Part shown: piece by piece, positions 34,726-50,945 of the stretch
Layout: the number at the start of each line of letters is the position of its first letter
Numbering within the stretch: position 1 is the first letter of the stretch
NCBI RefSeq assembly: GCF_039555535.1
Contig: NZ_CP154630.1
Location: 4,229,001-4,293,000 of the forward strand
Direction: 5' to 3'
Length of the DNA: 64,000 bases
From: Stenotrophomonas maltophilia
GTDB lineage: Bacteria; Pseudomonadota; Gammaproteobacteria; Xanthomonadales; Xanthomonadaceae
Made by a program: the position numbers and the translations under genes
Notes under the pieces: model-generated
The model's database searches: none
Told to the model about the DNA's origin: nothing
The model's input: only the letters and a program-made list of their open reading frames with translations

Positions 34726-34843
34726 CAGATCACTCCACTTCAGGATGCCGCCATCTTCCCGCCAGCAGAAATAGCAGGGCATGTGTCATTCGGCATAGAG
34801 TGCGGTGATCGATGGTGCTGCACCTTCGCCGGCTGCGCAGGCC

Positions 34844-35485: not shown

Positions 35486-35567
35486 GGTCGATCCCTGTGT
35501 GCGGATCAGATGGTACCGACGCTGCAGGTCGCGGGGGTGAGCGATGAGGCCTGCGTGTTCGCACCAG

Positions 35568-35604
35568 CATGAGTTGTCCGCCCATGCCAACCATAAGCTG
35601 TCCG
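35568..35604. repeat. Left-edge CATAAG-type short repeats of the island
   Basis: CATGAGTTGTCCG (35568-35580) and CATAAGCTGTCCG (35592-35604) are direct copies 24 nt apart. The whole stretch aligns with the segment ACCATCATAAGTTGTCC...CCAACTTATGGCTG near 50800-50836 at the other edge. Confidence 0.55.
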
Positions 35605-35703
35605 CTACTCAGGTGAAGCAGAGGGTCTCAATGCGCTTTCGAGCCAGGTAGCCACGTCGTCCCGCCCAGCAAACCAAGCGTGCCGTCCTTCCAGAATGAA
35701 CAT
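35605..35703 (-). pseudogene. Remnant of a helix-turn-helix gene related to that at 40998
   Basis: The minus strand reads MFILEGRHAWFAGRDDVATW, LESALRPSASPE, stop. It aligns with the C-terminal part of the intact HTH protein beside tnsAB (MFQIPGRRGWFARREEVCAW, LHQSL...), sharing M-F...G-R..W-F-A.R..V..W-L. Just upstream the frame reads KDSIE, matching RLSIK, and then meets a TAA stop, so the N-terminal half is lost. The rest of the gap 35486-35892 shows nothing else I can support. Confidence 0.65.
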
Positions 35704-35892
35704 TTCGATTGAATCCTTCGCTTATTTCCGGCTGGTACACGCCCTTGGAATTGCTCCGTCCAGATCTTGCATGATCACAATAATGTTATAACGTCACTTC
35801 GCGGTTTGCAACGGATCCATCGCTGAGCCGCAGCGCTAAAGCCTCTTGTACACATGTACCATCACCGTCAACCTGAACATGGATGTATGTGA

Positions 35893-36975
35893 ATGAGTGG
35901 GAATAAGTTTGATGCTGAACCTCAAAGCATGAGCGAAGCACGGAAGTCGGTCGAGCGAGAGCGGGCCAAACTCCACAGTGCACTCAATCGGCAAAACAGG
36001 ACTCATCGGCTGTACCAAGCTGTCACCTTAACCGCGTTTGCAGCGGTGGTCGTGAGTACTTTGGTCGCTACGTATTCCGAAATCATCAAAGAGAACATCG
36101 GATTTCTCGACTGGCTTCGATCTGCTTCGCCAGCCAGCCTGGCCGCAGCAATTACTGCCTCGGCCACCGCGCTTGTTGGCGCCGTGTTCGCCGCTTACAC
36201 GCGCCTAGACGCCTCCTCGCAGGAACAGACTCAGCGAGCCGTCTTGAGTAGAGTTTCGCTCTCTCGTTACGAGGATGATTCATTCGGCTCACCTGATGCT
36301 GCAGGTCAGGATTCATTTGCTACTCCAGGGCGGAATTCGCCTTCTACCGTTGCAAGCCGGGGTCCGACTCATGATGAGATTTCTGAAATAGCGAGTCGAG
36401 TGACAACGGAGTTGGCATCTCGTTCTACCGAAGCGGACTCGCTTAAAAAAATACGTACGCTCTATGAAACGGCGCAAGAACGGCTGAATGCAGCAATCAC
36501 TGCTCTCAATGAGCGCGCGCTCCTTAACCTGCTCATTGGCAGTGTCGTCACCGTCGCTGCGGCATTCACGCTGATCTATATCGTAGTGTCTGACCCTTTA
36601 AGAGAGGTAATACTTGTCACAGGGGCCGCTCGAACCCTGAGCTGGACTTCGTTAGCAGCTCATTACGTTCCCCGCCTAAGCATCGTGATTTTTCTAGAGG
36701 TCTTCGCATTCTTTTTCCTGCGGCTCTACCGGAACACTTTGGCCGAGGTACGCCTTTATCAAATCGACTTAACCAGGGTAAGTACACAAGCTGTGGCCGT
36801 CGAGCTTGTGTTTACGTCTGGTGAAGGCGCCCAACGAGCCGCCACGGCAGCCGCGTTGATCAACGCCCAATGGTCTGGTGCGGGCGCAACAGACAGCACA
36901 GGACAAGGCATAGATCCGAAGCTCGTGGGGGAGCTGGCGAGCATTGCGGCCAAAATGGCCAACAAGACGGCTTAG
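35893..36975 (+). CDS. Hypothetical four-span membrane protein of the island, 360 aa
   Basis: Predicted inner-membrane protein: a charged N-terminus (SMSEARKSVERERAKLHSAL), two membrane segments at about 40-60 and 80-105 (VTLTAFAAVVVSTLVATY; AAAITASATALVGAVFAAY), a cytoplasmic segment of about 100 residues with a coiled-coil-like part (SLKKIRTLYETAQERLNAAITALNERA), then two more spans near 212-230 and 262-280. No known domain is recognised. Codon use is visibly less GC-rich than in core genes. It lies at the left of the island, upstream of a DUF3800 gene in the same direction. Some phage-defence effectors are of this build, but that is only analogy. Confidence 0.6.
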   Translation: MSGNKFDAEPQSMSEARKSVERERAKLHSALNRQNRTHRLYQAVTLTAFAAVVVSTLVATYSEIIKENIGFLDWLRSASPASLAAAITASATALVGAVFAAYTRLDASSQEQTQRAVLSRVSLSRYEDDSFGSPDAAGQDSFATPGRNSPSTVASRGPTHDEISEIASRVTTELASRSTEADSLKKIRTLYETAQERLNAAITALNERALLNLLIGSVVTVAAAFTLIYIVVSDPLREVILVTGAARTLSWTSLAAHYVPRLSIVIFLEVFAFFFLRLYRNTLAEVRLYQIDLTRVSTQAVAVELVFTSGEGAQRAATAAALINAQWSGAGATDSTGQGIDPKLVGELASIAAKMANKTA

Positions 36976-37285
36976 CTCGCCATTTCACGTAACGCGAACG
37001 CTGCCGAAGAACTCAGGCTTATCGCCAACTAATGGGACAGACCTCTTAAGTCCACCGGGCCGGTCGTAAGATCGCTCAGTAAGAAGATCAAAATTCGTCG
37101 TGACCAATCCCGCCCAAGGGATGGATGGAATTCGGAGATGGAATGGCGCTGGTTGAAATGGCTCTAGTTGGTCATGACCTAAATCGGCCTCCTTGCAAGT
37201 ATCCGTGAAAACGGGAGGTGAATCCCTACTTCCGCATATAGCGTTGCATTGAATCCCCCAGGCGCAGTATTACCTCAGGATCGGA
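36976..37285. other. Gene-free spacer within the island
   Basis: 310 nt without a credible gene. It contains the short palindrome GGTCATGACC near 37171-37180 and otherwise nothing I can name; the promoter of the DUF3800 gene should lie here. Confidence 0.5.
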
Positions 37286-38488
37286 GTGGGCAAGCATACT
37301 ATGTACTTCCATATTGATGAGTCCGGCAATACCGGCAACGACCTTTTCAATGCTGACCAACCGAGACTGAGCTACGGGGTAATATCCAGCAGGACAAACG
37401 TTGAAGCGCGCGGAGTGGATATCCACCAGCGGATGCTTAGAAAGGTAGGAAAGACTGAACTGCACGCCAAGAATCTCAGAGAAGATGGCATCATCGCCAT
37501 TTCAGAGGACCTTTTGGCCCTCCAAAAAAAAATGGAGTTCGACTTCGACTTCTACTTTATAGAGAAGAAGACGCTAGCAGTTGTCGTACTCTTTGATGCC
37601 ATTTTCGACGCAGGCATCAACCCTGCCGTTAGATGGGAGAGCTACTGGACCCCTCTACGCTTTATGGTAGTACATAAGCTTGCGTACATTTTGGACGAAG
37701 AACTTTTGCGCACAGCATGGAACCTGTGCATCGATAGGAATGCCAAGAAGAGGCAAAGCGAAATCGTCGCCCTTCTGACAACAATTCGAGACCGTGCTCT
37801 TGCATCCGACTGGGATTATCGCAGCAAAGAGACGATCGTCGACGCTGTGACGTTCGGCATTGCCAACCCTGAGGCCCTGGATTTTGGCCACCCCGATAGA
37901 AAGCTCATGTCACCGAACGCCGTTGGCTTCCAGTTCGTGGGGAGCTGCATGGCTCGAAGGCTACGGTCTAAGAAGATCAGAGATGCAGCCTCAATCGTCG
38001 TGGACAGGCAGACCGAGTTCAACCAGGCGCAACTTGAGACGAGTCGCGTGCAAAGGCTTATGGCCGAGGGTTGGAAGAAGGCGACACCGCGGGAGCGAGC
38101 GCTCTTCTTCAACCACCCACTCTACGCTCACATGGACGAGGATGAGCTTTTCAACTCCGGCCTGCCTACGCGCGAGGCCTGCATCGCCGATAGCAGCACC
38201 TCGATCGGCCTTCAGATAGTGGACATCTATCTTTGGATTGCGCAACGAATGATGAGCGGCAGCCTCCCCCGGGGGTTGACTGGGCTCGCGAGAAAAATCT
38301 TCCGGCGCTCCCTCATAGATGGGATTAGTATGCGCGGCATGGAGAAGCGGTTTGAGCACTTCCTGTCCACCCTGCCACCAATTGAACAACTGACCGATGA
38401 AGATCTCAGATCTGCGGCGGCATCCATTGAAAGGCATCGCAAATCGGTAAAAGAGATGAACGCAGTGCTCCAAGATCAGGAGATATAG
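37286..38488 (+). CDS. DUF3800 domain-containing protein
   Basis: Soluble protein of 400 aa. The N-terminal YFHIDESGNTG is the DUF3800 signature (acidic D-E-S-G-N), followed by DLFNADQPRLSYGVI, an internal AASIVVDRQTEFN and, near the end, SSTSIGLQIVDIYLWIAQR, whose conserved Asp completes the likely active site. The family has an RNase H-like fold prediction and is common in defence islands and mobile elements; a nuclease role is inference. The start is GTG at 37286 (AGGA 5 nt upstream); the ATG at 37301 is the alternative. It converges with the OLD-family gene. Confidence 0.8.
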   Translation: MGKHTMYFHIDESGNTGNDLFNADQPRLSYGVISSRTNVEARGVDIHQRMLRKVGKTELHAKNLREDGIIAISEDLLALQKKMEFDFDFYFIEKKTLAVVVLFDAIFDAGINPAVRWESYWTPLRFMVVHKLAYILDEELLRTAWNLCIDRNAKKRQSEIVALLTTIRDRALASDWDYRSKETIVDAVTFGIANPEALDFGHPDRKLMSPNAVGFQFVGSCMARRLRSKKIRDAASIVVDRQTEFNQAQLETSRVQRLMAEGWKKATPRERALFFNHPLYAHMDEDELFNSGLPTREACIADSSTSIGLQIVDIYLWIAQRMMSGSLPRGLTGLARKIFRRSLIDGISMRGMEKRFEHFLSTLPPIEQLTDEDLRSAAASIERHRKSVKEMNAVLQDQEI

Positions 38489-38702
38489 AGACCGGGCGAC
38501 TCCTGCGCGAAACCACTACAGATCGACATTTATTCCTCTCTGCGTGCAGGTCCGAATTGCTTCCAGCAGGCATGAATTTTTAGCCTGCCGCAACCACAGA
38601 ATACCCGAAGTAGTACGGTCCAAAGGCATTCTTTCCCTTATGGCTCGGTCGAGCACTGCAGAAGCTACCTGAGGTCGACAGAGCTTGCGCGCCCACTGCC
38701 AA

Positions 38703-40517
38703 TCAGCCTTCTACAACCTCATCAGCTACAGGCTCGAACTCGGCAACAGCCTCAGACAGCGCAGCCTCGTCGTCCCACTCCAAAACGCCGGCCGGACAGA
38801 CATCCGAGCTCCTTACAAGGAACTCGAGCAGATCAAGCACTCTTTTCCTGGCCAGTGCATCCTCCCGAACTCTTAGCCACGACGCGTAAGGTTTCTCTCC
38901 TGATACGAGTTCACCAAACATTGCTACCTCGAATGTGTGCAGAGAGGCAACAAGACGAACATCGGACGGAGAGTTCTTCACCTCTTCGAGAATTCTTCCA
39001 TTGGCTACCCAAGCACTGTTTGCGACCAGCTGGCCTTTCCTATTCTTTGCTCTTTGCAAATCAGCATCGTGAAGCACGGAATAGGAACACTTGAACTGAT
39101 TCAAGATCTTACAGAGCGCAACAATGGTGTACTTCCCGCGCGCCCGCACGATGTGCACATCGTGGAATTTCACCGGATCGTCAGCGATAACCTCCCGAAA
39201 TGCCGCGTACTCAGTATCCCCCTCCACGATCACCGTCCGACCACCGAAGAAGAACTCGGCAACATAGGGGTCATACATATTCAGGAGCTTCAGCCGCTCC
39301 TTGTCTTCATCGCCTAGCCTGGCCCGATCAGGACGGAAGATTGTTGTGCCTGAGACGGTTCCAGCCTGAGATCGCTCCACTCTTACAATGGAAGTATTGT
39401 TACGCGAGAGATCGATGAAAGCGGGTGAGTGAGTAGTCACCATCACCTGCCATGTTTTTCCGCCGGGAAGCGAGTAGAGCACGTTGCAAGCATCACGCAC
39501 TGCGGCAGGGTGCAGGCACAGCTCCGGCTCATCCAGTAGCAGCACATGGGGCCTTTCCGTTCCTTTCGCTCCCGCTTTGTGGTCCGCGATGATCCTGAGC
39601 GCGTTCCACATAAGTGTTCGCCTGGCTCCACTGCCCTGTCGCTCCAGATCCGATTGGTGCCCATCCGCAGGCCCCATTCTGAGAGCTGGCGGCGCCTTGA
39701 AGAAGGATATGCTCCTGCTTAGATCGTCCTCTGGACGAGCATCCAACGTAATACTGTAGCCTGGGAAAACATCAGCCATGGCCCTCACCAGTTCTAGACG
39801 CACCTCGTCGATCGCCTCCATTGCCTCGGTTGCAACTGCCTTTTGGAGTTCCGCGACTCCTGCAAGGAGCTTTGCGTAAGCACCTTCCTTGCCCTCTTCT
39901 TCGATAAGCGCCTTGACCCGCTGCTTCGTCGCCTCCTCCAGAAGGGAAATGATGCTGTCGGCTTGCCTCTTGGGATCGTCGAAGGCTTCAATTCTATGCA
40001 TCTCGGGCCTATTGGACTGAGCAACGGATGCGGTTCCCCAAGGGCCATGGTTAGCATCCCAAGCGTTGAGCTCGACGTTGAAGCCCCTTTTCTCAGGCTT
40101 ACCAGGGCAACGCCAAGTCCATCGCTCCCTTACATGTCGATCTCCATTGGGTCGAACATCAATCCACTTATCAGCCGGCGGCTTACTATCAGCGAAGAGG
40201 ACGGTCTCAAGCTCGATACTCGGCATGTCCTCGTCTTTCAACTCTGCACCCGTGACGTAGCCACCAGGAAAATCCTCGGCCAGCAGGTCCCCCCTCGCAC
40301 CCGACTCCATCACAAGCTGGTACGCGCGAAGGATGGAGCTCTTCCCGGTGTTATTCGCACCTACCAGGACGACAATGTCGTCTAGCTCGATTTCAACAGC
40401 CTGCCTGCCTATTGCCCGAAAATTCTTAATTACTAGCTTGTGCATTCGAGCCCGCGGTGCCACCTGATCCTCGGCCACAAGCTTTTTCTCTCCGACCTTC
40501 TTCTTTGCAGTTGCCAT
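38703..40517 (-). CDS. OLD-family ATP-dependent endonuclease (AAA + TOPRIM)
   Basis: Predicted overcoming-lysogenisation-defect nuclease of 604 aa. The ABC-type ATPase half has Walker A GANNTGKSS (residues 53-61), the signature LERQGSGARRTLMW, Walker B VLLLDEPELCLHP and the H-loop VTTHSPAFID. The C-terminal TOPRIM half has VIVEGDTEYAAF and a downstream LHDADL. These are class 1/2 OLD features used in anti-phage systems such as P2 OLD and GajA. No UvrD-like helicase (GajB) is adjacent, so it looks like a stand-alone OLD. The ATG at 40517 follows a G-rich SD-like stretch; an ATG at 40547 adds ten residues. Confidence 0.87.
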   Translation of the reverse strand: MATAKKKVGEKKLVAEDQVAPRARMHKLVIKNFRAIGRQAVEIELDDIVVLVGANNTGKSSILRAYQLVMESGARGDLLAEDFPGGYVTGAELKDEDMPSIELETVLFADSKPPADKWIDVRPNGDRHVRERWTWRCPGKPEKRGFNVELNAWDANHGPWGTASVAQSNRPEMHRIEAFDDPKRQADSIISLLEEATKQRVKALIEEEGKEGAYAKLLAGVAELQKAVATEAMEAIDEVRLELVRAMADVFPGYSITLDARPEDDLSRSISFFKAPPALRMGPADGHQSDLERQGSGARRTLMWNALRIIADHKAGAKGTERPHVLLLDEPELCLHPAAVRDACNVLYSLPGGKTWQVMVTTHSPAFIDLSRNNTSIVRVERSQAGTVSGTTIFRPDRARLGDEDKERLKLLNMYDPYVAEFFFGGRTVIVEGDTEYAAFREVIADDPVKFHDVHIVRARGKYTIVALCKILNQFKCSYSVLHDADLQRAKNRKGQLVANSAWVANGRILEEVKNSPSDVRLVASLHTFEVAMFGELVSGEKPYASWLRVREDALARKRVLDLLEFLVRSSDVCPAGVLEWDDEAALSEAVAEFEPVADEVVEG

Positions 40518-40997
40518 TGCGCCCCCCCCTGTTTTTTCAACCGCCATATTGCAGCCACACCAATACTCGACCCGATAGATGCATCCTGTCTGTCAGATTA
40601 TCCCTATGCGGATAGCTTCCTTATGCGGAGGTTCCTGCAATTGAGGCGTTCACCGTCGTCAACTAGGCCAAGCAAAGAGCGGCGGTGAGTGGGGTGAAGC
40701 GTCCTTCTTCGGCCACGGCATGGCTTGGGCGCTGAATCCACAGGCGCTCAACCGAGGCGTGTCGCAAGCTATCCTTGCCACTAGTGGCAAGGAATTCTGG
40801 GGCAAAGAGACAGTGACGTGACATAGGTGCTCGATAGCGGGACGGAAGTTGCGAACGCGGATTAGCCCAAGCCGCTGAGGCAGCAGCCAACCCCGAAATC
40901 GAGTTCGATATATTTATATCTTACTTTTCAACAACTTGCGTCTTCGCAGCAATAGGTCTATACAGGTTCAATCAGACCGGACAGAGCGCGACTAAGC
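40518..40997. other. Gene-free region between the OLD gene and the transposition genes, with two palindromes
   Basis: 480 nt of divergent control region. A perfect 22-bp palindrome, TCCTTGCCACTAGTGGCAAGGA, lies at 40772-40793. GATATA TT TATATC at 40907-40920, in a conspicuously AT-rich patch 80 nt before the HTH gene, looks like an operator. No gene is visible. If a transposon end lies to the left of the transposition genes, it could be here, but no TGT...ACA end with repeated sites was recognised. Confidence 0.6.
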
Positions 40998-41279
40998 ATG
41001 CCAGGCTCTCAGATCCCTCCCCCACCGCCCCCTTCCAGCTCCTTCTGGGCGGCACCGTTGCTTGGCGTAACCGTCCCCGACAGCCCCATCTTCTCAGCGG
41101 CGGACACAGCCAGGCTGTTGGGCTTCCCCACAAGGGAGGCCCTCGCAAAAGCACGCCGAACCGGACGGCTCTCTATAAAGATGTTCCAGATTCCTGGACG
41201 GAGAGGCTGGTTCGCTCGTCGCGAAGAGGTATGCGCCTGGCTACACCAATCCCTGAACAGCGAGGAGGAAGCCCGATGA
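40998..41279 (+). CDS. Small helix-turn-helix (excisionase/AlpA-like) protein
   Basis: Predicted DNA-binding protein of 93 aa. A proline-rich start (PGSQIPPPPPPSSS) is followed by a MerR/excisionase-like winged helix: IFSAADTARLLGFPTREALAKARRTGRLSIK and the wing MFQIPGRRGWFARREEVCAWL. It lies about 195 nt upstream of tnsAB in the same direction, separated by a hairpin. A decayed relative lies at 35605-35703. It may regulate the element or take part in excision or target choice; all of this is inference. The SD site is weak and a start 20 or so codons later is possible. Confidence 0.7.
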   Translation: MPGSQIPPPPPPSSSFWAAPLLGVTVPDSPIFSAADTARLLGFPTREALAKARRTGRLSIKMFQIPGRRGWFARREEVCAWLHQSLNSEEEAR

Positions 41280-41308
41280 GCTAGCGAAAGCACGGGCCCT
41301 CAATAGAA

Positions 41309-41338
41309 AAGGCCGCACATTTGCCGTGTGCGGCCCTT
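41309..41338 (+). terminator. Hairpin between the HTH gene and tnsAB
   Basis: GGCCGCACA (41311-41319) and TGTGCGGCC (41327-41335) pair perfectly around a 7-nt loop, preceded by AAAA and followed by CTTGAT. It may end or attenuate the HTH transcript. The region 41339-41473 should then hold the tnsAB promoter. Confidence 0.6.
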
Positions 41339-41473
41339 GATACGGCAAACGGCTTCTCGATCCGTTGCCCGATATTGAGCTCCGCCCTCCATGCAAGTCA
41401 AGCCCCGTGGCATAGCGCCGCGCGGCCGCCCTTTGCCCGTCTGCGCTGGATCCAGCGCGGATTAGGAGGTCTC

Positions 41474-43858
41474 ATGCCTTTATCTGCCCCAGAGTTCCAG
41501 TCGTACGTAGAGCGATTGTCTCTTTCGGCCGCTGCAATCAGCTACATAGCCGACACCCGTTCTAGTGAGCCGGCGCGATCCGTCAGATCTGTCGGATACC
41601 ACAACACGGTCTGGCGCTACCCAAGCGCGAAGATGGGGTTCTCAGTGGCGCTTGAGAGTACGGAGGAGCACACATGCGCCGCTCAGCTTGAGTACGACGC
41701 AAGCGTCATCGAGTACTGGGACCAGCCGCCCGCTGTAAGTCTAGATGTGTTGGATTTCCACGGGAGGAGGAGAAAGGCGAACTACGTTGCTGACTTCCTC
41801 ACATTGAAGGAATCCAGCGTCGAGGTGGTCCAGGTCAAGACTGCCTCCGAGTGTGAACGCTTGGCCAGTTCCAACCCCAACAGATGGACGTGGGACGGAG
41901 CCAAGGCAGCTGACCTTGCAGCCGACGCGCACTTCCAAGAAATCGGCTTAGTACACCGCGTGGTCTCTGACGGATGCTCACGAAGAATTTTCGCTGAGAA
42001 CTGCTTGCTTCTGTTGCGTCTTCGGCAAGCATCTACGCGAAGCATCGATGCTCGTCAGCTTGCCAAAGCCTGCTCCACGCTCAGGCAGCGAAAGGTCTTC
42101 ACCCTGGGCCAGTTAATGCGTGCAGTGAACACTTCCTCAGCGAATGAAGTCGTGCGGTTGATAGACCTAGGTGCTCTCTTCACCGATCTCAATCGATGCC
42201 GCCTGTCGGTACCTGATGAGTGCCTGGTCTCCTTTGAACCTGACATCGTGACCAGTCATCTTCATCGCCTAGACATGCTGGGCACTGCAGCCGAACATCT
42301 ATTCCAGCTGACACAAGCGGAGGCAATAGAGGTCCACGGCCGATTGCTCGTCATACGTGGCCTGGTGCCTGCGATGAAGTCTGATCGAACAACGAGGCGC
42401 TGGCGCGCGCGATTTCTCCAAGCAGGGGGCGACCCATCGGCTCTCCGCCCAAGACATCGATCAAAGGGTAATAGAACGCCCAGGCAGACACCTGAAGAAT
42501 TCGCAGTGATGGATCGCGCCATCAGCACCTACTTCCTCAGCGCAGATGCCCTAAGTGTTCAGGCGGCATACTCGCAGTACCTACTTGATCATCAGCTTTC
42601 TATTGCCGAGGGCAAGCTACTAGGCAACTCAGTCGCCGCATCCAAGGAGACCTTCCGTCTTCGGTGCAAACGGCTGCCAAAGGAAATCGCTGAAGGGGCC
42701 CGGAGCGGGACAAGAGCTGCTGCAGCTTCCGCCCCCCCGGTGGACCCGGCGCTGACACACCTATCTCCGGCACGGGCATTTGAGCGGGCGCATACCGACC
42801 ACTACCAGTGCGATCTGCACGTAGTCGTGATTGACACCAAGCCACCAATCACCAGCAAGCCTTGGATAACTGCACTTCGAGATCATGCCACCGGTCAAGT
42901 GTTAGCGACGTCCTTGAGCTTCAGCAGTCCAAGCAATCACAGCGTGCTGGGAGTTCTCCGCGACTGTGCACGGCGCTGGGGACGGCTCCCTGAGTCGATC
43001 GTCGTGGACAACGGAGCCGAGTTCAACTCCGTGTACTTTGAAACCACCCTGGCCAGCTTGGGCGTTTCAAAGCAGAGCAGGCCCCCGGGAGAACCACGCT
43101 CTGGCGGGCAGATCGAAGGGTGGTTCCGTTCGCTCAAGTCCTACCTCAGCCAGCAGCCAGGGAACACGACAAACGACGCTAGGGGACGATCAGCTACAGC
43201 AAAGTTCAAAGGACAAAGTCAAACAAGCTGGACACTTGCGACGGCTTATCAGACCATGGATGAGTTCATCTTCAGCATCTACAACAACAACATTTCTGAT
43301 GGCTGCCTTCACAGCCGATCACACGCCTCAGAGTCACTTCTAACTGCATTCCCCGAAAGTGGAGTACCGACACCCTTCACCCGCGAGCTGCTTGCCAGAA
43401 CGGCAATTCCGCTCCGGAGACCACTAAGGCTTGATCGAGCGCGGGGAATTCGTCATTGCGCGAGATGGTACAGACATCCCAAATTGTTTGAGTCAAGATC
43501 CGGTCCGGGGCCCTTCGAAGCCTATGTCGAGCCCTGGGACGCCAACACACTCTATGTGCTGATAGACGGGCAACGTATCCCCTGCCGGCATGGCTCTCAG
43601 CATGCAATTGACCTTACGACGGACTTTACGCCGGCTCTGGACTCGATCCGGTTCCTGGGCAGCACCAGAGGCCGTGCGCTCCTCGCTAAAGCCGCGTCGA
43701 TCGAGACAGCCAAGCTGACAAGGCGCTTCGCTGAGGCTGACAAGGCCAGACAAAGGGCGATTAGCGTATCCAAGGCACAGAAGCCAGCTGCGCCCCGCAA
43801 GAGGTTACCAGCGCGACGCGCCCTGATACTGCCTTATGGTCCCGGTGACGCATCATGA
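41474..43858 (+). CDS. tnsAB: TnsA-TnsB fusion transposase
   Basis: Single 794-aa chain joining both Tn7 strand-cutting activities. The N-terminal TnsA endonuclease part (about 1-230) has the restriction-enzyme-like residues Glu73 (QLEYD), Asp107 (YVADF) and Gln120-x-Lys122 (VVQVK), matching E63/D114/Q130-K132 of Tn7 TnsA in order. The C-terminal TnsB part has the DDE triad Asp442 (AHTDHYQCD), Asp512 (IVVDNGAEF) and Glu548 (GGQIEGWF), with the classical 35-residue D-E spacing, then a Mu-type C-terminal domain. TAGGAGG precedes the ATG. TnsA cuts 5' ends and TnsB joins 3' ends in the family. The stop overlaps tnsC. Confidence 0.9.
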   Translation: MPLSAPEFQSYVERLSLSAAAISYIADTRSSEPARSVRSVGYHNTVWRYPSAKMGFSVALESTEEHTCAAQLEYDASVIEYWDQPPAVSLDVLDFHGRRRKANYVADFLTLKESSVEVVQVKTASECERLASSNPNRWTWDGAKAADLAADAHFQEIGLVHRVVSDGCSRRIFAENCLLLLRLRQASTRSIDARQLAKACSTLRQRKVFTLGQLMRAVNTSSANEVVRLIDLGALFTDLNRCRLSVPDECLVSFEPDIVTSHLHRLDMLGTAAEHLFQLTQAEAIEVHGRLLVIRGLVPAMKSDRTTRRWRARFLQAGGDPSALRPRHRSKGNRTPRQTPEEFAVMDRAISTYFLSADALSVQAAYSQYLLDHQLSIAEGKLLGNSVAASKETFRLRCKRLPKEIAEGARSGTRAAAASAPPVDPALTHLSPARAFERAHTDHYQCDLHVVVIDTKPPITSKPWITALRDHATGQVLATSLSFSSPSNHSVLGVLRDCARRWGRLPESIVVDNGAEFNSVYFETTLASLGVSKQSRPPGEPRSGGQIEGWFRSLKSYLSQQPGNTTNDARGRSATAKFKGQSQTSWTLATAYQTMDEFIFSIYNNNISDGCLHSRSHASESLLTAFPESGVPTPFTRELLARTAIPLRRPLRLDRARGIRHCARWYRHPKLFESRSGPGPFEAYVEPWDANTLYVLIDGQRIPCRHGSQHAIDLTTDFTPALDSIRFLGSTRGRALLAKAASIETAKLTRRFAEADKARQRAISVSKAQKPAAPRKRLPARRALILPYGPGDAS

Positions 43859-44871
43859 ATGAGCATCTCCGAGAGGCCGTGAATGGGGCTCGATTTCCGC
43901 ATCCTCGCTACGTTGAGGCAGTGAGGTCTGCAGCAGCATTGATGACATTCAGTGGGGATGGATCTGTGATTGCAATGGTGGGCCCACCCAGAGCGGGGAA
44001 AAGCACTGCCGGAAGGGCCGCCGCGAGAGAGGTGTACCCACACTCCACCCCTGATTCCATTCCTTACGTAGTTGTGGATTGCAGTCGAACCGACGCCGGC
44101 TACATGTCCATGCGTTACCTAACCCTAGACCTCCTCGCCCAACTCGGCCATCCGTTCTATGGCGATCTCGAGCACTCTTTAAGGCTGAAGCTTACGGAGA
44201 CCAACGCGCGCCTACAGCTCCGTCGCGCAATTGAGTACAGGCGCACCAAGCTACTCATCATCGACGAGGCCCATCATCTTCTACGCGTTAAGGACAGGTC
44301 CGGACGCGAAGCCGCATTGGAATCGCTGAAGTGCCTTGGAAATGAAACTGGTGCCTTGATATTTCTCATCGGCGGGTACGAACTTCTCAGGGAATGTTTC
44401 TGTTCTGCTCACATGAACGGGAGGCTGTCTATCCTTCATTTTCCGCGCTACGGAACTAGCATCTCTGATGCGGGATGCTTCGACAGGATTCTCGCATCCT
44501 ATGATGTTCTACTCCCTTGGGCAAAGGGGCACTCACTCCTCGAGATGAGAGATCTCCTATACGAGGGATCGCTCGGGTCGTGTGGACTTGTCGGCAACTG
44601 GATTCTTCTTGCGCTAGCGCGGATGACTTCGTTGCGATCGCAGCGACTTCGCATGGAGCACTTCAGATCAGCCAGGTATAAGCAGCAGCTGGCGGAGATC
44701 GCAGAGGACATCACGTTTGGCGAGTCCGCTCTCCAGCCGATTGAGAAAGATCACACAAGCATCTTTGAACTCACCTCCATCACGGACGTCTCTGAAAGGA
44801 AAGCAGCTCGCAGGCCAGGCAAGCGGATTCCAACGCGAGATCCAGTTGGCAACGTTGAGCGTCGGCGATGA
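43855..44871 (+). CDS. tnsC: TnsC/TniB-type AAA+ transposition regulator
   Basis: ATPase of 338 aa that in Tn7-like elements bridges the target selector and the transposase. Walker A is GPPRAGKST (residues 43-51) and Walker B LLIIDEAHHLL (Asp137-Glu138); a sensor-like LIGGYELLRECF follows. The short length is that of TniB and small TnsC proteins, shorter than Tn7 TnsC (about 555 aa). Start and stop overlap tnsAB and tniQ by 4 nt each, implying translational coupling. Confidence 0.9.
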   Translation: MNEHLREAVNGARFPHPRYVEAVRSAAALMTFSGDGSVIAMVGPPRAGKSTAGRAAAREVYPHSTPDSIPYVVVDCSRTDAGYMSMRYLTLDLLAQLGHPFYGDLEHSLRLKLTETNARLQLRRAIEYRRTKLLIIDEAHHLLRVKDRSGREAALESLKCLGNETGALIFLIGGYELLRECFCSAHMNGRLSILHFPRYGTSISDAGCFDRILASYDVLLPWAKGHSLLEMRDLLYEGSLGSCGLVGNWILLALARMTSLRSQRLRMEHFRSARYKQQLAEIAEDITFGESALQPIEKDHTSIFELTSITDVSERKAARRPGKRIPTRDPVGNVERRR

Positions 44872-46085
44872 ACGCATACTTCCATGTTGCACCTATCGCC
44901 CTTGGCACATTGGAGGTTGAGTGCTTGTCCTCGCTGCTCCACCGCATTTCATACGCCCACGGCGTTTCGCGGTTTCAGTTCATATCGCATCTGCAGTCTC
45001 GCTGGTGGACCGAAACTGGAAACCATCTCCCTCGATGTGAAGAGCTGAGATGGGACGGCTACAGTCCGAAAGTCTCTATTGCGCTAACCGCACTCAATTA
45101 TGCGTTTGGCTATGACTTGGAGGGAACGACCCTCGTCGCCTTACAGGGCATTTGCGCAGGAAATTGCATCGGATCCATAAAGCATGAAAGATGCTGGTGC
45201 CCTGCTTGTCTCAGGGGTGATCGTGAAGTCGGCAGGCCACCATATGATCGTCTACTGTGGCGAATCCAAGGCGTTGAACGCTGCAGTCTTCATAAGCTTC
45301 GGCTTCGACGCAACTGCCCTCACTGCGGGTCAGGGCAAACCAAAGACAGCAGCAAAGTCGAGCTAGACCAATGCAGTACCTGCGGTCAAAGCCTATCCAA
45401 CCTAACGTCTATCGGGGACTATGCGCCGCGACCGCCATTCGGTGAGGAGCAGACAGAGCAACTGATCCTCCGACTGGGAGAGGTCCGTGGAGCAGCCTCG
45501 GGTTCGCTGCAGGTGTTCCTTAGCAACGTCAGTAGCCCTACCAAGGATTGGGGAAAGCATCTTGGCGACATCTTCCACACGAGGCACTGCCCGATTCTTC
45601 CGCAGCTGACGTCGTTGATTGCAGTGGCTACCCACTTTGGTGTGGACATCGTGCAACTGATAACTTCGCCAGCTTCGGCAGCCGCCCAATCTGGATTAGA
45701 GATTGGCAATGCGTCACCGCGAAAGGTGCGCAGACCAAGTTCCCACTTGCGAGCGAACCGTACCGCGTGGTTTCGGAAGGAACTGGAGACTGCCCTCGCC
45801 GCAGGCCCGCCCTACCCTTCTACAGCTCAGTTCTGCCGCAGCCGAGACTACAGCGCCACTGCTGCCAGAAACAGTTTTCCATGGCTTACCGGACAACTCA
45901 GTGCCCTGCATCGTGAGTGCAGCAGAGCTAACCTGGAACGGCAAATTCTGGCTGCGGCAAAGGCGATTCGATCCTTGCCGCAAGGCACGAAGCGCCTTCC
46001 AGCTAAGGTCCGAGCGCGCCTGATTGCCGAGCAATCAGGCGCTCCCATGCATGTGGTACGGAGAATTCTGTCGGCCGATCGTTAG
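44868..46085 (+). CDS. tniQ: TniQ family target-selection protein
   Basis: Protein of 405 aa with the TniQ zinc-binding N-terminal half: VECLSSLLHRISYAHG, then CWCPACLRGD, RIQGVERCSLHKLRLRRNCPHCGSG and DQCSTCGQSL. The C-terminal part contains HTH-like helices (ARLIAEQSGAPMHVVRRILS). It is close in size to the TniQ of Tn5053- and CAST-type elements and shorter than Tn7 TnsD (508 aa), which recognises a fixed attachment site. Being the only selector present, it should determine the insertion site. It is the last gene of the operon. Confidence 0.88.
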   Translation: MNAYFHVAPIALGTLEVECLSSLLHRISYAHGVSRFQFISHLQSRWWTETGNHLPRCEELRWDGYSPKVSIALTALNYAFGYDLEGTTLVALQGICAGNCIGSIKHERCWCPACLRGDREVGRPPYDRLLWRIQGVERCSLHKLRLRRNCPHCGSGQTKDSSKVELDQCSTCGQSLSNLTSIGDYAPRPPFGEEQTEQLILRLGEVRGAASGSLQVFLSNVSSPTKDWGKHLGDIFHTRHCPILPQLTSLIAVATHFGVDIVQLITSPASAAAQSGLEIGNASPRKVRRPSSHLRANRTAWFRKELETALAAGPPYPSTAQFCRSRDYSATAARNSFPWLTGQLSALHRECSRANLERQILAAAKAIRSLPQGTKRLPAKVRARLIAEQSGAPMHVVRRILSADR

Positions 46086-46169
46086 TGGCCGAGGAGAGAT
46101 GTTCACTATCGACCAGCAGCCGCCATCCGCGCGGCGCAATCGTATCCAGCGCACACCTCAATCGCCTTG

Positions 46170-46796
46170 TTACTTCACCGTTGCACGCCACGCGGGCCAC
46201 GCCTCGCCGATCACACCCAGCGCGGATTTCAGGAACAGAAGCGCGATCACCGCGCCTGCTGCGATGTCCGGCCAGCCGCTTCCGCTCAGCGCTACACCAC
46301 CGGCAGCCACCAACACACCGATGTTGGCGGCGACATCATTGCGGGAACACTCAAAGGTGCTTTTCATGTTGATGTTGAACGCGCGGAACCGCCACAGCAG
46401 TGCCAGGCACACCAGATTGGCCACCAGCGCGATGGCTCCGAACCCCAGCATCAAGCCGCTGGAAGGCGGCACGCCGTGGATCAGCTTGCTGACCACCTCC
46501 ACCACGATGAAGACAAAGAAGGCCAGGATCAGCAGCCCCTTGGCGAGGGCCGCACCGGCCTCCCAGCGCGCCCCCCGGTTCACTGCCCACAGGCTCAGGC
46601 CGTACACGATCGCGTCGCCCAGCATGTCCACTGCATCGGCCTGCAGGGCACTGGAGCCCGCCACGATGCCTGCGGCGAACTCGATGAAGAACATCGCCAG
46701 GTTGATGATGAGTACTGCCACCAGTACGCGGCGCTGCGCACTGTGGAGGGCCAAGGCTTCCAGTTCCTGGCGCTTGTGGCCGCAGCAGTGGTCCAT
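46170..46796 (-). CDS. Short cation diffusion facilitator (CDF) metal exporter
   Basis: Inner-membrane metal/H+ antiporter-like protein of 208 aa. A Cys/His-rich N-terminus (MDHCCGHKRQELEALALHSAQRRVLV) precedes six membrane segments. The CDF signature is seen in GSSALQADAVDMLGDAIVYGLS, with HxxxD-type metal ligands replaced by D-x3-D, and in ECSRNDVAANIGVLVAAGGVALSGSGWPD. The C-terminal cytoplasmic metal domain of CzcD-type CDFs is missing. It is divergent from a CadR-like MerR gene with a MerR-type promoter facing this gene, so zinc, cadmium or lead export is likely. Confidence 0.85.
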   Translation of the reverse strand: MDHCCGHKRQELEALALHSAQRRVLVAVLIINLAMFFIEFAAGIVAGSSALQADAVDMLGDAIVYGLSLWAVNRGARWEAGAALAKGLLILAFFVFIVVEVVSKLIHGVPPSSGLMLGFGAIALVANLVCLALLWRFRAFNINMKSTFECSRNDVAANIGVLVAAGGVALSGSGWPDIAAGAVIALLFLKSALGVIGEAWPAWRATVK

Positions 46797-46846
46797 GGGT
46801 GACTCCCGCCAGGCTGTGCCCGGGCTTGAAAAAGGATGGGGCAGCC

Positions 46847-46877
46847 GTTATAAACCCTGTAGCCCCTACAAGGTCAA
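46847..46877 (-). promoter_or_regulatory. MerR-type promoter/operator of the CDF gene
   Basis: On the minus strand: -35 TTGACC (46877-46872), a 19-bp spacer and -10 TATAAC (46852-46847). The spacer holds the dyad ACCTTGTAG GGG CTACAGGGT, 8 of 9 arm positions paired, like CadR/PbrR operators. The long 19-bp spacer is the hallmark of promoters activated by MerR-family untwisting. Confidence 0.82.
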
Positions 46878-46881
46878 GCCC

Positions 46882-47292
46882 ATGCCCACCCACCTCACCA
46901 TCGGCCAGCTGGCCCGCCAGACCGGCACCAAGGCCGAAACCATCCGCTATTACGAGAAGATCGGCCTGCTGCAGCCGCCACTGCGCTCGGAGGGCAACTA
47001 CCGCTACTACGGCGCGCAGGACCAGAGGCGTCTGTCGTTCGTGCGCCGCGCCCGCGAGCTTGGCTTCCCCATCGAACAGATCCGCGAGCTGATTGCTTTT
47101 GGTGAACAGCGGGAGCACGAGTGCAGTTCGGTGGACGATGTGGTGAAAGCGCACATCGCAGACATCACGCGCCGGATCCTGGACCTGCAGGCGTTGCAGG
47201 GCGAGCTGGAGAGGATGATCGGCAATTGCCCGGGCGGCCGCGTAGCCGATTGCAGGGTGCTGGAAGCCCTTCAGCCGCAGCCTGCTGCTTGA
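46882..47292 (+). CDS. MerR family metal-responsive regulator (CadR/PbrR-like)
   Basis: Transcription activator of 136 aa. The N-terminal MerR HTH (LTIGQLARQTGTKAETIRYYEKIGLLQPP) and the wing (EGNYRYYGAQDQRRLSFVRRARELGF) are followed by the dimerisation helix. Cys81 (EHECSSV), Cys116 (GNCPGG) and Cys124 (ADCRVL) match the three-cysteine pattern of CadR/PbrR-type Cd/Pb/Zn sensors; there is no His-rich tail. Two matching promoters, one for the divergent CDF gene and one for the downstream receptor, suggest it controls both. Confidence 0.88.
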   Translation: MPTHLTIGQLARQTGTKAETIRYYEKIGLLQPPLRSEGNYRYYGAQDQRRLSFVRRARELGFPIEQIRELIAFGEQREHECSSVDDVVKAHIADITRRILDLQALQGELERMIGNCPGGRVADCRVLEALQPQPAA

Positions 47293-47319
47293 CCTTGTAG
47301 CCGCATCAAGGTTTACAAC
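47289..47319 (+). promoter_or_regulatory. Second MerR-type promoter, before the TonB receptor
   Basis: -35 TTGACC (47289-47294, overlapping the merR-like stop), a 19-bp spacer and -10 TACAAC (47314-47319). The spacer holds ACCTTGTAG CCG CATCAAGGT, with ACCTTG/CAAGGT arms shared with the operator at 46847-46877. The receptor ATG is 46 nt further on. Confidence 0.78.
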
Positions 47320-47364
47320 GCCGGGCTACTTCGCCACCGCGCGGCCCTGCCGCCCTGACGACCC

Positions 47365-49341
47365 ATGACCCTGTTGCCCCATCCGCTTGCCCTGGCGCTG
47401 AGCGCCGCCCTGCTGTCCGCCGTTGCCCCGGCCAATGCACATGAACCGCCCGCCGCGCACGACGACCACCACGATGAGGCCGTGGAGCTGGATGCGGTGG
47501 TGGTGCAGTCAACCCGATCAGGGCGCCGCGTTTCCGACGAACCGATCCGGGTAGACGTCGTGTCGCAGGAAGAGATCGAAGAGAAGCTGCTGATGTCGCC
47601 GGGCAACGTCTCCATGCTTGTGGCCGAGACGGCGGGCGTGCGGGTGCAGAACACCTCGCCGGGCATGGGCGCATCCAACATCCGCATCCAAGGCCTGCGC
47701 GGCCGGTATACCCAGCTGCTGGCCGATGGTCTGCCGCTGTACGGCGGCCAGTCATCGTCCATCGGCCTGCTGCAGATTCCCCCGACCGACCTTGGCAGTG
47801 TCGAGATCATCAAGGGCAGCGCGTCGGCGTTGTACGGTCCGGCAGCGTTGGGCGGCGTGGTGAACCTGATATCGCGCCGGCCCAAGGAAACCGCCGAGGC
47901 CGAAATGCTGCTCAATGCCACCAGCCGTGGCGGGCAGGACGTAACCGGCTACGCAGCCGGGCCGCTGGCCGAGCACTGGGGCCTCTCTGTGGTGGGTGGC
48001 TACCATCGGCGGGACCGCCAGGACCTGGAGGGAGACGGCTGGGCCGACATCCCGGGCTACGAGCGTGCCACGGTCCGGCCGCGGCTGTTCTGGGAATCGG
48101 AAAACGGAGCGCGCGCACTGCTGACGGCAGGCGCTATGCGTGAGAGTCGGCTGGGCGGAACACTGCCCGGTCAACGGGCACCCGACGGGCAGCCCTTCGC
48201 TCTCACGCAGCGCACGGAGCGCATTGATGCCGGCGCGGTTGTCGATGTTCCGGTGCGCGAGAGCAACCGCCTGCAACTGCGCGCATCGGCCATGTCCACC
48301 GATCACGACCACGGGTACGGCCCTGAGCAGGACAACGACACCCACCAGACCGGATTTGCGGAAATCAGCTATGCGTCCGGCGTAGGCGCCACCAGCTGGC
48401 TGGCGGGCATTGCCGCGCAGCAGGACCGGTTCCGTTCCGCCCGATACCCGCAGTTTGATTACCGCTACACCGTGCCTGCCCTGTTCGTGCAGGCCGAGCA
48501 GGCGCTGCGCGATGACCTCACGCTTTCCGGCAGTGCGCGCTGGGATGACCACAGCGTCTATGGCGGGCACTTCAGCCCCCGCGTGTCACTGTTGTTCCGC
48601 CCTGACGAGTGGACCCTGCGCGCGTCGATCGGCAGAGGCTTCTATGCTCCTACGCCCTTCGTCGAGCAGATCGAGGCCGCTGGCCTGTCACGGCTGGAGC
48701 CGCTCACCGGCCTTCGCGCGGAAATCGCTACGACCGGGTCCATCGACGCAGGCTATGTGCATGGCCCTTGGGAGCTCAACCTCAGCGTGTTCGCATCCGA
48801 CATCGACCATGCGGTACGCCTGGTGGAATCTGCGACCTCCTCGGGTGAACGTGTGCAACTGGTCAATGTAGACGGCGTCACCCGCACCCGTGGTAGTGAG
48901 CTGCTGCTGCGCTATCGCTGGCAGGACATCTCAGTGACCGGCAGTTATGTCTACACCGATGCGCGCGAACCTGGTGAGGAGGGCGCCGGCCGCCGTCTAG
49001 TTTCACTCACACCCCGGCACAGCGCAGGCCTGGTTGCCATGTGGGAACAGCATGACCGTGGCCGTATAGGCCTGGAAGCCTACTACACCGGCATCCAAGC
49101 GCTTGATGACAATCCCTGGCGTCGACGCAGCCGACCGTATCTGGAAGTCGGTGCACTGGGAGAAATCGTGCTGGGAAGAGTCAGCCTGTTCCTCAACCTG
49201 GAAAACATACTCAACGTCCGCCAGAGCGGCTACAACCCGATGTTGCGGCCCCGCCGTGCCGACGATGGCCAGTGGACCGTGGATGCATGGGCACCGCTGG
49301 AAGGGTTTGTGGTGAATGGTGGTATTAGGATGAAGTTCTAG
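47365..49341 (+). CDS. TonB-dependent receptor, probably metal-linked
   Basis: Outer-membrane receptor of 658 aa. The signal peptide (LALALSAALLSAVAPANA) is followed by a His/Asp-rich mature N-terminus (HEPPAAHDDHHDEAVELD), a TonB-box-like DAVVVQSTRSGRRV, the plug (VAETAGVRVQNTSPGMGASNIRIQGLRGRYTQLLADGLPLYGG, VEIIKGSASALYGPAALGGVVNLISRRP) and a barrel ending FVVNGGIRMKF. The His-rich start resembles zinc receptors such as ZnuD. A MerR-type promoter precedes it, so it should be induced by the same metal as the exporter. Whether it imports a metal chelate or has another role is unclear. Confidence 0.88.
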   Translation: MTLLPHPLALALSAALLSAVAPANAHEPPAAHDDHHDEAVELDAVVVQSTRSGRRVSDEPIRVDVVSQEEIEEKLLMSPGNVSMLVAETAGVRVQNTSPGMGASNIRIQGLRGRYTQLLADGLPLYGGQSSSIGLLQIPPTDLGSVEIIKGSASALYGPAALGGVVNLISRRPKETAEAEMLLNATSRGGQDVTGYAAGPLAEHWGLSVVGGYHRRDRQDLEGDGWADIPGYERATVRPRLFWESENGARALLTAGAMRESRLGGTLPGQRAPDGQPFALTQRTERIDAGAVVDVPVRESNRLQLRASAMSTDHDHGYGPEQDNDTHQTGFAEISYASGVGATSWLAGIAAQQDRFRSARYPQFDYRYTVPALFVQAEQALRDDLTLSGSARWDDHSVYGGHFSPRVSLLFRPDEWTLRASIGRGFYAPTPFVEQIEAAGLSRLEPLTGLRAEIATTGSIDAGYVHGPWELNLSVFASDIDHAVRLVESATSSGERVQLVNVDGVTRTRGSELLLRYRWQDISVTGSYVYTDAREPGEEGAGRRLVSLTPRHSAGLVAMWEQHDRGRIGLEAYYTGIQALDDNPWRRRSRPYLEVGALGEIVLGRVSLFLNLENILNVRQSGYNPMLRPRRADDGQWTVDAWAPLEGFVVNGGIRMKF

Positions 49342-49421
49342 GGTTGGGCTAATGCGGGAGGCGACGACCGCTTTAGGCCAAAAGCAGACGCCGACGAGAT
49401 CGGGAAGCAGCCGGCCTTGCA

Positions 49422-50282
49422 CTAGTTCGGCATATTGGCCTTTGGGCCAGGGCTGAACTTGGAATCTAAGCCTTGGCGCACGTTTGCTACATCGGGAAAG
49501 GCTTCCACCATCCTGTCGGTGGCCACCTTTAGTATTTCAGCGCAGATGAGCATCGCGGTAATCAAGTAGCTGCGATCCGCGGCATTGTCTAAGCCTGAGC
49601 CACGTCCGTTGGCCTCCATTCGGTAGAACGACATAGGGTGGATGTGGGAGTGCTGTGACCACAGATCCCAGATTACGTCGAATTGCGCCTTCTTCATTCC
49701 AACCATTTCCACCAGCTGGGCCCGGTCCAAGAACCAAGCCTTCTTGCCAGACAGACACTGTGACTGAACTTGTTGGGCCAGATGTTGAAAGAAGGGAATG
49801 GTTTTCAAGCGCGCGATTAATTCATCCCTCTGCCGCTCAAACCCTTGTAGTTGCTCCGGATCGTCCGCGAACATCTTGACGCGACTGCAGCAGTCGTTGA
49901 GTTGTAGCAGCGTGATCCGCGCACGGCCTTCTTCAAGATCTTCATTGGTCGGAGATATGAGGTAGTGGAAGAAGAGGTTTCCTTCCAAGATCGCACGAGC
50001 ATGGCATGCAATCGCATGAAATCCCCAATGAGCATGGTCACTTTCAACCCACCGGGACAGCGGCGCGGCACGTACAGCGGCCGTACCGTGGGCACACATG
50101 CGGGCAAAGACATAGGTCGCGTATCCCATGCAGGGTCCCGCCATCTTCCCGGCTTGGGCCTGTCCGACGGCTACCGCCTCGCACACGGCCTCATCTAAAC
50201 ATCCGAGAGCCTCCTCATAATCCTGTCGCCCCGGTTCCTCTTTTTCGCTCAATCGTTGAACGAACGCCTCAGCTTTACTCAT
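49422..50282 (-). CDS. Hypothetical protein, DUF5677-like, 286 aa
   Basis: Soluble, mostly helical protein without signal or membrane spans. The segment HWGFHAIACHARAILEGNLFFHYLISP and the later VIWDLWSQHSHIHPMSFYRM with ending AMLICAEILK resemble DUF5677-type proteins, which often lie in mobile DNA, but this match is from memory of the family style and weak. GGAG is 5 nt before the ATG at 50282; a longer frame to 50318 exists. It is the last larger gene of the island, on the opposite strand to the receptor. Confidence 0.55.
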   Translation of the reverse strand: MSKAEAFVQRLSEKEEPGRQDYEEALGCLDEAVCEAVAVGQAQAGKMAGPCMGYATYVFARMCAHGTAAVRAAPLSRWVESDHAHWGFHAIACHARAILEGNLFFHYLISPTNEDLEEGRARITLLQLNDCCSRVKMFADDPEQLQGFERQRDELIARLKTIPFFQHLAQQVQSQCLSGKKAWFLDRAQLVEMVGMKKAQFDVIWDLWSQHSHIHPMSFYRMEANGRGSGLDNAADRSYLITAMLICAEILKVATDRMVEAFPDVANVRQGLDSKFSPGPKANMPN

Positions 50283-50416
50283 CTCGTCTCCACACCTCGG
50301 CCGTTCAGCTAAAGTCACGCCCCCGCCTAGGGCGCTGTCGAAAACACCCTACAACGACCACAGCGCAAGGCTATCAGATGGTCTGCGGTATAATTGAACC
50401 TCGGCAGGAGGTACCC

Positions 50417-50617
50417 ATGATCAGCAAGGCTCAGCGCCAACAGGCACTGATTGAGGCTACAGCCTCGCTCCGCCTGGAAGGCCTGCCCATTTCATACCGG
50501 GATGACGACCTTTATGCAGCGGCCGTTGATGGACGCCGCGTTGGGGAGTTGCGCGATGCCGTATTGGCTCGTGTCCGCTCCGAGTTGGCGTCAATTACGA
50601 CATCCTCGACCCCGTAG
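50417..50617 (+). CDS. Small VbhA-like antitoxin candidate, 66 aa
   Basis: Short protein starting ISKAQRQQALIEATASLRLEGLP, followed by DDDLYAAAVDGRRVGELRDAVLARV. The A-x-ASLRLEGL helix followed by a turn and a second helix resembles the VbhA antitoxins that block Fic-family AMP transferases. No Fic gene is adjacent, so it would be an orphan. A strong CAGGAGG precedes the ATG. If the family match is wrong, it is simply a small helical protein of unknown function. Confidence 0.5.
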   Translation: MISKAQRQQALIEATASLRLEGLPISYRDDDLYAAAVDGRRVGELRDAVLARVRSELASITTSSTP

Positions 50618-50784
50618 GAACGGCGGGGCCGTAAACGCGCCATCTTGATCTTGCTGCTTTGAGCCGCTCGCCGGCTTCTCGGGCTGTCTCGGCCGTGTCC
50701 GAGCAGCAGTTGGCCTGAGTCGTATCACCACCTCATCCCGGCTCAGTGAGTCCGAGCTCCGCGATCACCCAGCGAGAGGGGCGT

Positions 50785-50832
50785 CTTATGGTCGTTTCAC
50801 CATCATAAGTTGTCCAAAACGGCCAACTTATG
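50785..50832. repeat. Right-edge CATAAG-type short repeats of the island
   Basis: CTTATG (50785-50790), CATAAGTTGTCC (50804-50815) and CAACTTATG (50824-50832) alternate in orientation; the last two form a perfect 9-bp inverted repeat, CATAAGTTG...CAACTTATG. The segment aligns with that at 35564-35600. It lies 38 nt from the 3' end of the tRNA. Confidence 0.55.
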
Positions 50833-50869
50833 GCTGCAGGAACACTGCGACCGGTCATGCGAGGTCGGT

Positions 50870-50945
<76 letters not shown>

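Follow-up and report, generated by a model that had tools for sequence, protein, structure and literature searches.

The stretch analyzed here, hereafter called the window, comprises 64,000 nucleotides (nt) of Stenotrophomonas maltophilia (contig NZ_CP154630.1, positions 4,229,001 to 4,293,000). Between window positions 35556 and 50844 (15,289 base pairs, bp) it carries a Tn7-like transposon that very probably targets a single tRNA gene and needs no guide RNA to do so. The core genes, ends and attachment site are listed below (aa, amino acids).

35551..35555, no strand: left copy of the target-site duplication CTGCG, present as one copy in the L088 empty site
35556..35605, + strand: distal (left) end, beginning TGTTC, with two direct predicted transposase-type sites (offsets 11 and 35)
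40998..41279, + strand: small conserved protein of 93 aa, probable DNA-binding regulator judged from its position; in 19 of 29 loci a homologue precedes TnsAB
41474..43858, + strand: TnsAB fused transposase, 794 aa (homologues, alignment, profile match to 9bw1_M)
43855..44871, + strand: TnsC-type AAA+ ATPase (AAA_22, TniB; Pfam)
44868..46085, + strand: TniQ/TnsD-family target selector, 405 aa (Pfam PF06527; predicted model and fold matches)
50760..50844, - strand: tRNA-proximal (right) end, tip at 50844, with predicted sites that are direct at 11, inverted at 28 and direct but weaker at 53
50845..50849, no strand: right copy of the target-site duplication CTGCG
50870..50945, - strand: tRNA gene (anticodon CAU) that forms the attachment site and is not part of the element

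To delimit the element, both flanks were searched as DNA across the genus, and 17 further stretches were compared. In the L088 empty site, window 33007-35555 runs straight into position 50845 with five shared bases. The L092 empty site has the same junction with four shared bases, and in L090, L094 and L095 the flank adjoins the tRNA as well. L088 holds a single CTGCG, while the window has CTGCG followed by TGTTCGCACC at its left junction and GGAACA followed by CTGCG at its right junction. Empty sites, TGTTC ends and the 5-bp duplication thus delimit the element to the base, and the transposon is apparently complete. An earlier note on this DNA had expected a mobile unit, exact ends and a duplication of about 5 bp from such a comparison, and all were found; the extent it had proposed (40998-46085) was too small. 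No terminal repeats were found within 35400-46800, because the right end sits at 50844. An element end near 46 kb, suggested by a change in GC content, was rejected: 46170-49341 lies within the empty-site interval and is variable cargo.

A copy in another species of the genus (G039) matches window 38643-46110 at 95% identity and occupies the same site, with its own duplication, CCAGC. It lacks a block of CDF, MerR and TonB genes, which is located elsewhere in other genomes (e.g., G055, G022, G088 and G035, 92-94% identical). The different duplication, together with the absence of a block found elsewhere, indicates that the core moves with variable cargo. In seven of the compared stretches (L091, L096, L099, L100, L101, L102 and L103) the left flank is separated from the CAU tRNA by other insertions, about 1.6 to 11.5 kb long, and no such end motif was seen by eye beside the tRNA. 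Elements of more than one kind thus use this hot spot.

The genes lie at the positions given earlier, and the fused TnsA-TnsB frame is open, with overlaps of 4 nt at both TnsAB/TnsC and TnsC/TniQ. The TnsAB start codon is the ATG at 41474, and most homologues begin at the same methionine. The homologue set contained 24 proteins including the window's own, from a search whose scoring was limited to the 7,998 candidates with the most words in common. Pfam TnsA_N (PF08722) was matched in 17 and rve (PF00665) in 19 of the 24, the window's own protein matching rve only, under the Pfam cut-off. Its TnsA part is therefore assigned from the homologues and from the profile of the 24-protein alignment, which matches the solved chain 9bw1_M over positions 5-746 (E 1.1e-159). 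Among the active-site residues proposed beforehand, D107, K122, D442, D512 and E548 are invariant across the 24 rows and Q120 nearly so. The proposed TnsA glutamate was E73; E61 and E73 are each invariant, and E61, not E73, seems to match the catalytic Glu63 of E. coli TnsA. A TnsB-type DDE transposase and a TnsA endonuclease in one chain, TnsC and TniQ in the same operon, a 5-bp duplication with repeated end sites and a fixed insertion in one orientation all agree with the assignment to Tn7-like elements with a TnsAB fusion. A search for related loci in genome contigs confirmed no relative, and among plasmids 31 records matched at E 1e-20, none spanning 80% of the query.

The surroundings of 22 TnsAB loci were then scanned: 7 from the genus (including 4 more distant ones), 13 from the family and 2 from the class. 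The genus search gave 16 TnsAB matches in 14 of 91 genomes, from which we scanned G000, G039, G035, G064, G074, G031 and a second copy in the window's own genome; G053 was counted in the family set, and the other eight were seen only as short loci. TnsAB was found in 14 of 395 genomes of the family at E 1e-60 (13 loci added) and in 3 of 369 genomes of the class (G562 and G715 added). At ten of the 22 loci (G000, G039, G428, G409, G399, G446, G224, G279, G358 and G389) the tip lies 23-29 nt behind the same CAU tRNA, and the TniQ-side end faces the tRNA in all ten. The distance is 25 nt beyond the tRNA 3' end in the window; for G428, where ARAGORN called the tRNA without an encoded CCA, 23 nt corresponds to about 20 on the scale of the others. 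Both ends, with TG tips and a perfect 5-bp duplication, were recovered in seven of the ten. As for the other three, G358 has a far end without duplication, the far end of G389 was not found, and the contig of G399 starts too late. Tips were picked by eye; far ends were sought as the duplication plus TG, and the number of shared 7-mers served to rank them. In G000 a different far-end candidate outranked the chosen one (3 vs 2), and the empty site decides between them; in G446 a good far end was obtained with the inner tip and none with a tip placed two bases further out. Elsewhere, the locus of G035 shares its flanking gene with that of G000 but its contig ends, G155 and G174 run off their contigs, and G244 has a CAU tRNA 49 kb away and no end signature. 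No CAU tRNA was seen within 20-60 kb at G192, G053, G562, G715, G064, G074, G031 and the second own copy.

In five hosts, chosen from eleven, the tRNA is identical at 67-73 of 73 positions and the 20 nt that follow it at 2-6. Since the tRNA is conserved between hosts and the adjacent bases are not, the simplest view is that the element recognises the tRNA gene itself. The tRNA/rpoD neighbourhood had been suggested as the target; the empty sites and the ten loci favor the tRNA, and rpoD is merely a neighbour. ARAGORN called this tRNA Met(CAU). In the window's own genome, two genes fit a CAU-tRNA pattern that would not detect the initiator tRNA, namely this gene and an elongator-Met-like gene at C1:4424611. 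As the other CAU tRNA is of the elongator-Met type, the target is most likely a tRNA-Ile with a CAU anticodon, an identity for which we take the E. coli tRNAs as reference.

tRNA genes are common sites for genomic islands, and within the genus this one has other insertions beside it, as would be expected if the tns genes were cargo of another, integrase-type island using the tRNA. We regard this as extremely improbable: exact 5-bp duplications and TG tips in seven elements contradict such an island, the insertions lie 23-29 nt outside the tRNA and not within its 3' end, and no integrase family was matched in the 12 element open reading frames (ORFs) searched except the transposase's own rve domain.

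We next considered what reads the tRNA gene. The element yielded no CRISPR, no TnsE and no second TniQ, in line with the lone TniQ described previously. The 12 ORFs gave no match to TnsE or to cas families (the TniQ itself matches TniQ models of CRISPR-associated transposons, CASTs). Searches of the element revealed no CRISPR-like repeats, direct repeats in 46800-50844 were limited to two short two-copy families, nothing CRISPR-like, and an Rfam search returned the tRNA as its sole match. Like many relatives in the bacterial family, the element lies at a fixed distance behind this one tRNA gene, so that a protein of the element, and not a CRISPR guide, probably reads the gene as an address; we infer that TniQ does so alone, acting as a TnsD. 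In the mechanism we propose, TniQ would bind what is conserved at the site, the tRNA gene; TnsC would join TniQ and then call in the TnsAB fusion holding both ends; TnsB would cut the 3' ends and TnsA the 5' ends, in a cut-and-paste reaction. The element would enter about 20 bp downstream of the tRNA, leaving it intact, and the asymmetric ends would fix its orientation.

Several observations weigh against TniQ acting alone. By sequence its closest solved chain is a CAST adaptor TniQ, a fold search with its predicted model ties TnsD with the adaptor TniQ, and its length of 405 aa falls in a size range where a passage of PMC10293859 deems direct binding uncertain. In addition, a small protein is conserved before TnsAB in 19 of 29 loci. 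TniQ could therefore be merely an adaptor, with this small upstream protein or a host protein picking the tRNA gene. We consider this unlikely, as the fold alignment to TnsD reaches residue 385 of 405 whereas that to the adaptor ends at 275, and the small protein and the tRNA do not always go together. Its homologue was not detected in G399, G446, G224 and G358, all at the same tRNA, and it is present in G053, G064, G074 and the second own copy, without a CAU tRNA nearby. The ten loci without a homologue include G082b, with just 141 nt upstream; G174, G562 and G715 have other small helix-turn-helix-like frames upstream of TnsAB (by eye). The label "excisionase-like" attached to the window's small protein was not confirmed: it has no Pfam match at E 1 and no NCBIfam match, and its predicted model is poor (predicted local distance difference test, pLDDT, 62). 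It is most likely a transcriptional regulator and not a target selector.

The two ends differ in a recurrent way. Putative transposase sites were defined by a repeated motif of the AAGTTGKCC or AGTTTGGCC type (by eye), which varies with the transposase clade. In the tip-aligned far ends, two direct copies stand at offsets 11 and 34-35 in all seven, the second being weak in G039 (p 0.72). On the tRNA side a single copy stands at 11; nine of ten ends have an inverted copy at 28 and eight of ten a direct one at 51-53; G389 lacks the pattern, its best inverted match not being at 28. Taken one end at a time, many of the matches fall short of significance (p from 0 to 0.38 for the inverted site). 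In a pooled test of five ends, hand-picked with one per clade, none of 5000 shuffles reached the inverted copy at offset 28 and none the direct copy of the far end; the third site of the tRNA-side end was reached by 174/5000, and an inverted copy in the far end by 1961/5000, which gives no support for the latter. A genus search with the inverted pair (at most 3 mismatches) returned eight of 91 genomes, against two for the reversed pattern. A CAU tRNA is present at seven of these eight loci; at six the motif is 37-38 nt away from it, and in G035 (L169/L179, contig 96) the distance is 153 nt. The TnsAB of G035 is on another contig, and two insertions in a row are possibly present there. A narrow literature check, which included PMC10201428, found no paper describing an inverted native site; how asymmetric ends set orientation is called unresolved for Tn7 in a passage of that article.

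The remaining genes of the element are cargo, located on both sides of the core.

35893..36975, + strand: ORF of 360 aa, no Pfam match
37286..38488, + strand: ORF with DUF3800 (Pfam E 1e-6)
38703..40547, - strand: OLD-family ATPase/TOPRIM protein, defence-type (PADLOC Old, E 6.3e-88)
46170..46796, - strand: variable cargo, CDF cation efflux protein; not in the G039 copy, elsewhere in the genus
46882..47292, + strand: variable cargo, MerR regulator
47365..49341, + strand: variable cargo, TonB-dependent receptor
49422..50318, - strand: ORF, function unassigned
50417..50617, + strand: VbhA-like small protein near the tRNA-side end (E 2e-4, under the Pfam cut-off)

The gene for the OLD-family protein is oriented divergently from the tns operon; the protein, shared with the G039 copy at 97.6% identity, is a possible defence cargo. 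The VbhA-like gene is kept in G039 (73%) despite differing neighbouring cargo, and no partner toxin was recognised.

Near-identical TnsAB occurs in only two of the 91 genus genomes, and four genomes (G048, G060, G020 and G056) carry decayed or transposase-less copies; both facts would fit a defunct remnant kept at an old site and speak against a working element. Such a remnant seems improbable to us, since the core genes are open, active-site residues are present, both ends and the duplication are intact, and the copy in another species has a different duplication and cargo. The transposon is possibly active. Among the incomplete copies, the one in G048 (L172/L176, C1:4206825) is decayed: it keeps the small protein (97%) and the tRNA-side end, and TnsAB was not found within 20 kb. 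It adjoins only about 15 nt resembling the tRNA 3' end, and the intact tRNA is found at a distance of 23 kb, an arrangement that entry of a tRNA-integrating island between end and tRNA would produce. G020, G056 and G060, three of the genomes returned by the search with the inverted pair, have no TnsAB nearby nor genome-wide at E 1e-10 and are remnants or non-autonomous copies; in G060 (L093/L180) an insertion of about 6 kb has the tRNA-side end motif, with no transposase gene and no far end found. The window's own genome also holds a second TnsAB fusion at another chromosomal site (L022 9709-14511, C1:170.7-175.5 kb); it is distant (about 25% identity) and is accompanied by an ATPase-type gene, a TniQ of 445 aa and, upstream, a small-protein homologue; close TnsABs occur in G048, G070 and G074. 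A third TniQ-family gene, a 508-aa frame, lies at C1:2414926 (L001/L023).

In trees of TnsAB (41 rows) and TniQ (21 rows, where G035 is classed with the tRNA users), the tRNA users fall in several groups, and G389, G562 and G715 form long branches. The tRNA-use label needs three changes on the TniQ tree; tRNA use may have had one origin. On balance we favor, with some reserve, a family-wide, compact non-CRISPR Tn7-like group (TnsAB, TnsC and one TniQ) that reads by protein alone the gene of a CAU tRNA, probably the lysidine-modified tRNA-Ile. Its unreported end design, with an inverted second site on the tRNA side, would set orientation, and its address would be kept by transposases only 26-51% identical to the window's. 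If so, three proteins would make up a minimal homing system that works without a guide, lies outside the cyanobacterial CAST group and displays the non-CRISPR condition of machinery related to I-B2 CASTs. As the address and the borders of seven elements are defined to the base, and natural variants of proteins and ends are available, one could then test by what means a short TniQ selects its DNA when it has no partner, and in what way the asymmetric ends of Tn7-like elements determine orientation.

The general kind of element is already known, since a lone TniQ, a fused TnsAB and a tRNA-using TnsD have all been published. The lone TniQ, taken in the earlier note as unusual, is the commonest published arrangement, with a single TniQ/TnsD in 2,905 loci vs two in 998 in a section of PMC10293859. 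Its suggestion of a little-described type is likewise contradicted by a statement in PMC11406308 that I-B2 and I-D CASTs derive from a fused-TnsAB group, with TnsD using different tRNA genes; insertion downstream of tRNAs in general appears in a part of PMC8649781. No paper recognisably on these elements was among those listed in searches on Stenotrophomonas and Xanthomonas, although large surveys may include them unnamed, and no TnsD or Tn7-like transposon with tRNA-Ile was among the matches listed.

The element shares with Tn7 (TnsABCDE, glmS site) a module of TnsA, TnsB, TnsC and a TnsD-type protein, a 5-bp duplication, asymmetric ends and a fixed distance downstream of the recognised gene. 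It is not Tn7 in the strict sense: TnsA and TnsB are fused, no TnsE match was found in the 12 ORFs searched, the address is a tRNA gene and the TniQ-side end faces the target, whereas in Tn7 the tnsA side does. Nor does it belong to the CASTs (I-B2, I-D, I-F3 or V-K), as no Cas effector genes were found in the 12 ORFs searched and no CRISPR array was seen. The structures 9bw1 and 8v32 appear to represent the type I-B2 CAST of the Peltigera membranacea cyanobiont (PmcCAST, Tn7744), because of their titles, the abstract of PMC12585508 and the TnsD common to both entries; 9bw1 would be its TnsABCD transpososome. PmcCAST resembles the present element in its fused TnsAB (full-length profile match), its TniQ/TnsD-family selector and, according to a passage of PMC11406308, a tRNA gene as site. 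It differs in that here no CRISPR-Cas and no second TniQ were found, the host group is another, cargo lies on both sides of the core and the tRNA is not that of the PmcCAST target plasmid, which carries a tRNA-Val gene (a section of PMC10293859). Type I-D CASTs (CyCAST, McCAST) have a related fused TnsAB, and the TnsD of CyCAST homes 30-33 nt downstream of tRNA-Leu (same section); here no Cascade and no small second TniQ were found and insertion is 23-29 nt behind a CAU tRNA. Cyanobacterial fused-TnsAB elements without CRISPR, mentioned in part of PMC11406308, are of the same broad kind, with various TniQ partners. Relative to all of these, as far as checked in a narrow literature search, what is new here is the CAU-tRNA address, the recurrent small gene before tnsAB and the conserved end design, in which an inverted second transposase-type site is predicted only at the tRNA-side end.
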